Shown here: in pieces, positions 15,761-44,376 of the stretch
Layout: each line of letters begins with the position of its first letter
How positions within the stretch are numbered: position 1 is the first letter of the stretch
Source: Deltaproteobacteria bacterium
GTDB lineage: Bacteria > Desulfobacterota > Desulfobacteria > Desulfobacterales > JAUWMJ01
Direction: 5' to 3'
DNA length: 44,759 bases
Assembly (NCBI GenBank): GCA_030638575.1
Contig: DAOWEJ010000097.1
Span: forward strand, 1 to 44,759
Made by a program: the position numbers and the translations under genes
Notes under the pieces: generated by a model
What the model was told of the DNA's origin: nothing
What the model saw: only the letters and a program-made list of their open reading frames with translations
The model's database searches: none

Positions 15761-15805
15761 AGTCAGAGACCTTGGCAAAATGTCCCCTTTCGAAGGTCTC
15801 AGTCA
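15761..15805. mobile_element. 35-bp minimal GAGACC element (copy D) with 5-bp target duplication
   Basis: The core at 15766-15800 runs from GAGACCTTGGCAAAATG to TTTCGAAGGTCTC. It is flanked by exact AGTCA duplications at 15761-15765 and 15801-15805. It matches the left ~30 bp of copy C joined directly to the last few bases of the right end, so about 170-190 internal bases are missing. It lies in the 5' leader or promoter region of the HD-GYP gene. Confidence 0.8.
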
Positions 15806-16208: not shown

Positions 16209-16380
16209 CCAATAATCTTGATGGAGTCGTGAAAAGTCCCATCTACTGCGTTGTAGCTGTTTTTCAGGCACTCGGCATACTACATGTATTGCCTCGTCCC
16301 TGAAAAACCACTACGCCTTGCATATAGAACTTTTTACTTAGCCATCGGCGTTACTTTTCACGATGCCAATAATCTTGATG
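16209..16380. mobile_element. Second inverted-repeat element (TCGTGAAAAGT termini) flanked by 15-bp direct repeats
   Basis: The element between 16224 and 16365 has TCGTGAAAAGT near its left end (16227-16237) and ACTTTTCACGA near its right end (16353-16363). Its interior folds strongly: TTTTTCAGG pairs with CCTGAAAAA, extended by GCG-TGTAG against CTACGC. It is bounded by exact copies of CCAATAATCTTGATG at 16209-16223 and 16366-16380. It contains no open frame. The long duplicate is unusual for a DNA-transposon footprint. A related element with TCGTAAAAAGTC termini lies at 44597-44725. Confidence 0.75.
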
Positions 16381-16450
16381 TTTTCATAATAGATAAATCT
16401 AATCAGTATTGACCGGAAACAATTAAACTGATAAAATAAATGGTAAAAAT

Positions 16451-16470
16451 AACTTTTTACAAAGGTCTCA
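16451..16470. repeat. Isolated right end of a GAGACC element (fragment E)
   Basis: AACTTTTTACAAAGGTCTCA matches the terminal 15-20 bp of the GAGACC family (right-end orientation). No matching left end is visible upstream, so this is a truncated copy. It sits 23 bp before the start of the next gene and ten bases before its ribosome binding site. Confidence 0.55.
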
Positions 16471-16492
16471 ACCATATAACAGGAGGAAGCCA

Positions 16493-16786
16493 TTGGTTAA
16501 GAGAATAAAGCGCTACATTATCATCGGTATTTTACTTGCTGCTGGATATTTCTTTGCAGCCTATCATATAATAATTTATGACAAAAAAGAATTTGAAATA
16601 TTAAAAAAATCATACCTAACATTTGAATATACCTTTTACAATGCCACTAATAAAAAGCCTGAAGTTATCATGAAAATCGATCTGCTTCGTGAAGCCGGCA
16701 TCGGAGATCTCCTGGTTGATATAGGCATGCTAAGCCAGACACAGAAGGAAGCACTTGATGACAGGTTCTATTCAGAAGATTATTAG
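16493..16786 (+). CDS. Small membrane-anchored protein, unknown function
   Basis: The 97-residue product has a basic start (VKRIKRY), one hydrophobic helix (about residues 8-26, ending FAAYHIIIY) and a polar C-terminal domain of about 70 residues with a Lys/Asp-rich helix. I do not recognise the family. The TTG at 16493 is five bases after a near-perfect ribosome binding site AGGAGGA (16481-16487), which decides the start; no ATG lies near. The TAG stop (16784-16786) coincides with the first three bases of the target duplication of the element that follows. Before that insertion the gene would have overlapped the convergent cNMP-PilZ gene at the 3' end. Confidence 0.7.
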   Translation: MVKRIKRYIIIGILLAAGYFFAAYHIIIYDKKEFEILKKSYLTFEYTFYNATNKKPEVIMKIDLLREAGIGDLLVDIGMLSQTQKEALDDRFYSEDY

Positions 16787-16998
16787 TCGAGACCTTTGCA
16801 AAACGTCCCCTTTCGAAGTCTGCGCTTACATGGCAGATTAGCGCTAAAGCTTCACTAAAGTGCCTGCGTTGGACTCAATTTTTGGCACTTTAATGAAGCT
16901 TCAGCGCTATCCTCAATCCGCCTAGGCGGACCTCCGGTTAAAAATTTCGTCCGCCTTGAACTATGCCAAAATTGAACATTTTTCAAAGATCTCTAGTC
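16784..16998 (+). mobile_element. GAGACC inverted-repeat element (copy C) with 5-bp target duplication
   Basis: The 205-bp element at 16789-16993 starts GAGACCTTTGCAAAACG and ends TTTTTCAAAGATCTC. TAGTC is duplicated exactly at 16784-16788 and 16994-16998. The interior carries the family core CGAAGTCTGCGCTTA, paired AGCGCT words and CCGCCTAGGCGG. It is the whole spacer between two convergent genes, whose stop codons lie in the left and right duplications. Confidence 0.85.
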
Positions 16999-18120
16999 AT
17001 TGTACAACATATCTGCAAAAACAACCAGCATGCCGCTCATTTTGGGAGTCATATCTTTAAACTGAATTCCCAAAGCAAGAGTTTTTTTCCCATTATTAAA
17101 AACTTTTTTGCTCCAGGTAATATTACCGGCAAAATTAAGCGTAAAAGCTTCACCAGGCAGCGATATCTCTATCCCGGCATTTTTAATGGTCTCGTCTATG
17201 GAATCGACATTCGTATTTTTTGGATCCAGCACTATACAAACCCCGCCAACCGATATATCCTTGGAATACCCGTCAATAATGAACGGGGGATAGTCTGCCT
17301 CCTTTGGTAGAACCCTCACCTTCATCTGTATGGGTAGTGACTGTCGACCGGCCTTTCGATCAGGCCGCAAAGATCCCTCTTTTGCGGCAACTGAATAGTC
17401 CTCAAACAGTTTAATTATAGCACGTGCAACATTGGGATAACTCTTGCAAACCCTTATCAGGCCAAGTTTTGATATTTTTCCTGACTCAACGGAAGTAACA
17501 GCCTCGGTATAGGATTGAGATAATTTTTCCTCTTCAAACGGAAATATATCTCCTAAAACATCACTCTCGGACAGGTAAACTACAGATTTACTGTGGACCT
17601 TTTCTTCCCTGTTCAGCGGCTTATAAGTAGTGTCTTTCAAGGTGCCGGACGCGATAAAGTAGAGGTTGTCTTCAGCATCCCCTATCTTTTTTATTATTTT
17701 GCCTTTAGAGAAACGGACCCTCTCCAAACGATTCGTGATTGCGACCATTTCAGCAAATGACAAACTTTTAAAAAAAGCCTGTAGAGGCATTTGATTGAAG
17801 GCGGCCCTGCGAAGGGTTGAAAAAAAAGGACGGATCTCATGAAGGGTGGGCCTTATAATGCGCCATTGAAGAACTTTAGAAAAAATAGCGGGGAACATCT
17901 TCCCCGAAGCTATTAAAAGACTTGCTGCCTTTCCATAAGATTTGGCAGCGGTTTTATACGATTTCTTTTTGAACAACAAGTCGGCAAAAGCATTATAAAG
18001 CGCCGGATCATTGGGAAAGAGCTTTAACATGTTTTCGAACTCAGAAACGGAATCGATTGTAATTGAACCGTCAATGATGTGTTTGGCAATACTTCTTTGC
18101 TTGTTAATCTGCTCGCTCAA
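16993..18120 (-). CDS. TPR - cyclic-nucleotide-binding-like - PilZ signalling protein
   Basis: The 375-residue protein combines a short helical repeat pair resembling TPR (about 22-72; FPNDPALYNAFADLLF then KKSYKTAAKSYGKAA), a cyclic-nucleotide-binding-type beta-roll (about 125-235; FSKGKIIKKIGDAEDNLYFI and DVLGDIFPF) and a C-terminal PilZ-type domain (about 250-365; D.RKAGR then DGYSKDISVGGVCI). PilZ domains bind cyclic di-GMP through an RxxxR and D/NxSxxG pair; here DISVGG is clear and the upstream arginines are in RPDRKAGR. The cNMP domain lacks an obvious phosphate-binding RTA-like arginine, so it may not bind cAMP. TTG at 18120 follows AGGGAG. It lies three bases after the gene upstream, indicating one operon. 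Confidence 0.8.
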   Translation of the reverse strand: MSEQINKQRSIAKHIIDGSITIDSVSEFENMLKLFPNDPALYNAFADLLFKKKSYKTAAKSYGKAASLLIASGKMFPAIFSKVLQWRIIRPTLHEIRPFFSTLRRAAFNQMPLQAFFKSLSFAEMVAITNRLERVRFSKGKIIKKIGDAEDNLYFIASGTLKDTTYKPLNREEKVHSKSVVYLSESDVLGDIFPFEEEKLSQSYTEAVTSVESGKISKLGLIRVCKSYPNVARAIIKLFEDYSVAAKEGSLRPDRKAGRQSLPIQMKVRVLPKEADYPPFIIDGYSKDISVGGVCIVLDPKNTNVDSIDETIKNAGIEISLPGEAFTLNFAGNITWSKKVFNNGKKTLALGIQFKDMTPKMSGMLVVFADMLYND

Positions 18121-41510: not shown

Positions 41511-41740
41511 TCAAGGCTCTCCCATAAACACAAACGCTCCCCAGAATAATGGGTTAGCGTTGCCGTATCTTACCCTAACAGTCTTAAGTTGTTTAAGAGC
41601 CGCCTGACGCAGGGCCTGACACCGGTTCATTTCGAAGTCTGCGCTTATCTGCCGGATTTGATATTTTTGTAAAACTCCACCATCAGCTCTTTTGTTTCCT
41701 GGTCCGGCACCTGCCACATGCTCATCACCAGACTCCGGGT
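41511..41740 (-). pseudogene. CHAT-domain protease C-terminus remnant (copy 1)
   Basis: Read on the minus strand, the segment from about 41740 encodes TRSLVMSMWQVPDQ then ETKELMVEFYKNIKSGR, which are typical CHAT-domain strands (caspase-like proteases, often TPR-fused). The frame is broken by a 24-bp insert (41630-41653) matching the core of the GAGACC element. It resumes NRCQALRQAALKQLK, RVRYGNANPLFWGAF and FMGEP with a stop at 41511-41513, the normal end of a CHAT domain. The catalytic His/Cys region is not present. A near-identical second remnant lies at 44256. The single open frame reported across it is a chimera of frames. Confidence 0.8.
41630..41653. repeat. 24-bp core fragment of the GAGACC family inside a CHAT remnant (fragment F)
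   Basis: TTCGAAGTCTGCGCTTATCT in this position is the inner core of the element copies at 3188, 14147 and 16789. It lacks both terminal repeats and interrupts the CHAT reading frame. Confidence 0.6.
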
Positions 41741-44255: not shown

Positions 44256-44376
44256 CTAAGGCTCTCCCATAAACACAAACGCTCCCCAGAATAATGGGTT
44301 AGCGTTGCTGTATCTTGCCCTGACAGTCTTTAGTTGTTTAAGAGCCGCCTGACGTAGCGCCTGGCAACGGTTTTCG
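44256..44376 (-). pseudogene. CHAT-domain C-terminus remnant (copy 2)
   Basis: The last ~40 residues of a CHAT domain (ENRCQALRQAALKQLK, ARYSNANPLFWGAF, FMGEP, stop at 44256-44258) are present on the minus strand. The DNA matches copy 1 at 41514-41628 with about eight differences in 115 bp, and the first 51 bases are identical. The upstream sequence is different and not CHAT-like, so only this end is preserved. Confidence 0.8.

Follow-up and report, generated by a model that had tools for sequence, protein, structure and literature searches.

Organization of the convergent junction

The window, meaning the whole stretch of 44,759 nucleotides that was analysed, contains two convergent genes whose 3' ends are separated by a 205-bp sequence flanked on both sides by the pentanucleotide TAGTC (Table 1). 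The plus-strand gene encodes a 97-residue protein with no match in Pfam or NCBIfam, and the minus-strand gene a 375-residue protein with a PilZ domain and a cNMP-binding-like domain that scored slightly below the Pfam cut-off. Open reading frames (ORFs) were called by length rather than by a trained gene finder. The 205-bp element, which starts with GAGACCTTTGCAAAA and finishes with TTTTTCAAAGATCTC, fills nearly the whole spacer between the two genes. A search of the window against Rfam matched no family.

Table 1. Coordinates of the features at the convergent junction (positions in the window).
Feature	Position	Strand	Remarks
97-aa gene	16493..16786	+	conserved beside the PilZ gene in congeners
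Left TAGTC copy	16784..16788	none	5-bp target duplication; holds the whole TAG stop (16784-16786) of the 97-aa gene
205-bp MITE, non-autonomous IS5-type element	16789..16993	+	high-copy in the genome, with family-wide 5-bp duplications
Left terminal inverted repeat, GAGACCTTTGCAAAA	16789..16803	+	identical 15 bases listed for ISNme1 (PMC4596501)
Internal hairpin	16837..16907 (bounds approximate)	none	25-nt module AGCGCTAAAGCTTCACTAAAGTGCC in left arm, near reverse complement in right arm
Right terminal inverted repeat, GAGATCTTTGAAAAA	16979..16993	-	1 mismatch to family motif
Right TAGTC copy	16994..16998	none	its TA and the element's terminal G form the present minus-gene stop
375-aa cNMP-binding and PilZ protein gene	16993..18120	-	67% identity in both congeners

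The element is a MITE of a high-copy family

The element between the two convergent genes is a MITE, a real and well-formed insertion of a known kind. It is 205 bp long, has 15-bp ends with few mismatches and lacks a transposase-sized ORF; its copies are dispersed and carry target duplications, and empty orthologous sites exist. When used as a query against its own genome (G000, 2.3 Mb and about 76% complete), it gave 83 BLAST matches, and the end motif GAGACCTTTGMAAAA was found there 211 times as an exact match, while the reversed control pattern was found 0 times. Copy statistics were drawn from a sample of 69 delimited copies, 68 of them with both flanks; perfect 5-bp duplications were seen in 40 of these 68, against 0.78 expected when flanks were re-paired at random. 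The congeners G001 and G002 held 58 and 34 matches, respectively, and a 142-bp form with 5-bp duplications was present in many Desulfobacterota bins. The viral contigs yielded a single match, within an apparent phage gene, which was judged to be due to chance. Within the collection of literature searched, no work dealt with MITEs of Desulfobacteraceae or with MITE insertions at convergent stops.

Two further observations concern the range of the family. In the Chloroflexota bins G005 and G006 (behind L137 and L120), the end motif GAGACCTTTGCAWAAC is repeated many times, reflecting either inter-phylum spread or mis-binning. Mini-elements of 35 bp, comprising little beyond two ends, were also observed (window 15766-15800; L102 11605-11639; L104 1197-1231; L013 140-174; L035 1481-1515; L056 1481-1515), those in the window and in L056 having perfect 5-bp duplications. 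Their sequence suggests that they derive from deletion between TTTTCGAAG and TTTTTCAAAG within a longer copy, and both crossover variants were seen.

Empty orthologous sites and the rebuilt stop codons

The PilZ gene was present in two other genomes of the genus, and in both the junction lacks the element. The small gene shares 4 nt with the PilZ gene in L033 (G002, computed) and lies 3 nt away from it in L032 (G001, read from the sequence); the small protein of the window's own genome aligns lengthwise with its L033 counterpart. Joining the flanks of the element with a single TAGTC yields GATTATTAGTCATTG (...GATTATTAGTCATTGTAC...), in which a plus-strand TAG and a minus-strand TAA overlap by 4 nt. 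Based on the joined flanks and one congener, and with both congeners being distant (67% protein identity), a 4-nt overlap was probably the ancestral arrangement. Upstream of the 97-residue gene, a second high-copy repeat of ~145 bp was observed at window positions 16218-16363 (54 matches in G000, 47 in G001 and 41 in G002), and in L032 a sequence resembling it precedes the orthologous gene.

It was also conceivable that the flanking TAGTC copies are coincidental and that the spacer is old resident intergenic sequence that was lost from the relatives, given that a lone 5-bp match is weak evidence. However, 5-bp duplications are family-wide, the same element occupies dozens of unrelated sites, and the joined flanks recreate the L033 arrangement, making this explanation extremely improbable.

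Under the insertion reading, what was a 4-nt overlap is now a 206-nt spacer, and the presence of the element makes no difference to either protein. The plus-gene stop lies entirely within the left duplication. The minus-gene stop, TAA in the joined flanks, is now a TAG at 16995-16993, made of TA from the duplication and the first G of the element. The preliminary description had placed the element and its duplication correctly, and its proposal of an insertion at a formerly overlapping convergent junction is supported by the empty orthologous sites; the TAG/TAA overlap that it predicted upon removal of the element, with both proteins unchanged, was recovered, and the uninserted overlap that it suggested seeking in relatives was found as the 4-nt overlap in L033, next to the 3-nt gap in L032. 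Its statement that TAGTC holds the stop codons is accurate for the complete plus-strand stop but not for the minus-strand stop, and the target comprises 5 bp rather than the four bases it had given.

Candidate source of the transposase

The ends of the element connect it to the IS5 family, to which belong both ISNme1, ending in GAGACCTTTGCAAAA, and ISPg1, ending in GAGACCATTGCA (PMC4596501). Full-length elements with 5-bp duplications were identified in the same order in L281 (1423 bp), L286 (1427 bp) and L280 (1418 bp). Their ends (GAGACCTTTGCA in L281 and L286, GAGAGCTTTGAA in L280) are like those of the MITE, and each contains a homologue of the L254 transposase, which scored 162.6 bits against the NCBIfam IS5 model (cut-off 140). 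Ends and duplication length are thus common to the MITE and to autonomous IS5-family elements, and an IS5-family transposase acting in trans is the likely mobilizer.

G000 yielded neither a DUF772 match nor, at E<=1e-20, any homologue of the L254 transposase, and the partner may be missing there because the assembly is incomplete (about 76%). Insertion sequences often break contigs. In the examined stretches of the genome and its relatives, no long end pairs accompanied by perfect 5-bp duplications were seen. A DDE_Tnp_1 transposase, L065, located beside a copy on C45, was considered as a parent and rejected, as the adjoining copy is a 160-bp MITE of the ordinary kind and the other side of the transposase, where the contig stops, showed no family end.

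Landing sites relative to genes and stop codons

Only 2 of 55 copies were located inside ORFs, while ORFs hold 81% of the sites. Among 52 permitted insertions, the duplication overlapped a stop codon in 5, against 1.7 expected (p=0.026, a single test chosen post hoc). Stop codons had been rebuilt as TA|G in L010 and in the minus gene of the window, and as T|GA in L052 and L005. The L005 copy is a second instance at overlapping convergent gene ends, where one protein lacks its last residue; among several landings of this sort, the one in the window is therefore the cleanest.

The excess of stop-codon landings, together with the two sampled copies at overlapping convergent ends, could be taken as targeting of stop codons or convergent 3' ends by the family. 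However, only a small excess was observed, in a test picked after the case had been seen; for most insertions the distance to gene ends is tens to hundreds of bases, and the target duplications display only A/T-leaning ends. Stop-codon landings recur because ends starting with GA rebuild a stop, and these ends together with selection account for them. Selective filtering is enough to explain such landings, and targeting was considered very unlikely.

Possible effect on transcription termination

The preliminary description had stated that the element pulls apart two overlapping 3' ends, which is a fact of the sequence, and had further proposed that its hairpin could terminate both transcripts. 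An element retained as a bidirectional terminator or insulator, keeping convergent transcripts out of each other's genes, would be in keeping with the change from overlap to spacer, with the strong folding of both strands (z-scores of -6.1 for the plus and -10.3 for the minus strand) and with the slightly raised number of copies between convergent genes (12 versus 7.5 expected). Strong folding is expected of any long inverted repeat. The convergent excess, however, was not significant (p=0.11), spacers between tandem genes hold most copies (24 of 46), and the congeners cope with ends that overlap or are 3 nt apart. Furthermore, a simple scan of positions 16400-17400 on either strand for intrinsic terminators (a GC-rich hairpin followed by a T tract) returned 0 sites. 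Bidirectional termination by the element is therefore possible but unsupported, and retention for this function was judged improbable.

Modular hairpin arms

Two cassettes, one of 17 nt (CGAAGTCTGCGCTTATC) and one of 25 nt (AGCGCTAAAGCTTCACTAAAGTGCC), were found in one arm of the hairpin, mirrored in both, or in neither. The cassette junctions are constant, and the cassettes are present in both sequence subfamilies (in G000: window 16789-16993, L094, L002, L007, L029, L047 and others). Such modular arms could have arisen through template switching between hairpin arms or through recombination between copies. A more elaborate scheme, in which the arms consist of exchangeable 17-nt and 25-nt cassettes with swapped palindromic tips, copies such as that in the window grow or shrink by arm-to-arm cassette copying, and the GA-ended elements spread into gene junctions without causing damage, appears rather doubtful.

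A small palindrome, ATCCGCCTNAGGCGGAT, was observed at the hairpin tip and at other sites of the MITE, and also outside it (L102 16401, L101 15738, L109 19888); it resembles a tiny mobile palindrome. Elsewhere in the window, a 115-nt direct repeat occurs at 41513-41627 and 44258-44372 (93% identical), and a copy of the 17-nt cassette is located at 41633, directly after the first of these repeats.

Proposed course of insertion and relation to known elements

Taken together, the findings make it very probable that an IS5-family transposase, working in trans, placed the MITE in a 5-bp TAGTC lying across the overlapping stops of the two convergent genes, its location being the outcome of selection and of stop-rebuilding ends. 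The transposase would have made a staggered cut in TAGTC, and fill-in of the cut would have produced the 5-bp duplication. The plus gene would have retained its TAG inside the left duplication, and the minus stop would have changed from TAA to TAG because it now joins the closing TA of the duplication to the G that opens the element. As neither protein was changed, the insertion would have been tolerated. More generally, strong selection against intragenic insertion, combined with GA... ends that remake stops as T|GA or TA|G, would determine where copies persist.

The family resembles the IS5-family elements with GAGACC ends (ISNme1, ISPg1 and ISPg9) and MITEs such as BrickBuilt of Porphyromonas gingivalis (PMC4596501) in its near-identical terminal repeats (that of ISNme1 being GAGACCTTTGCAAAA), and shares with BrickBuilt-type MITEs the lack of an internal transposase, intergenic placement and the existence of filled and empty sites (PMC4596501). 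Unlike BrickBuilt, which has a 23-nt tandem array and variable duplications (PMC4596501), the Desulfobacterota family has a folded palindrome, is mostly 142-227 bp in length and has uniform 5-bp duplications, with its end motif also present in some Chloroflexota bins. MITEAba12 of Acinetobacter is likewise short, non-autonomous and moved by a resident IS, and can form gene ends and bring stops, but it differs in its 9-bp duplications and in having related IS ends of the GGCTTTGTTGCA type (PMC6382973). RUP, Correia/NEMIS and other small bacterial mobile repeats are also high-copy and mostly intergenic, with terminal repeats and target duplications, but have mostly TA-type ends and other sequences, NEMIS being an RNase III substrate (PMC2229807).

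The insertion is ordinary mobile-element biology, and the site, though neat, is one among many copies in the genome. It nevertheless offers a clean natural case of a high-copy element settling in a gene-dense genome, in which stop-rebuilding ends allow entry even into a 4-nt gene overlap with neither protein altered, and it provides a precise filled/empty pair for asking whether convergent genes that have been separated change in expression.
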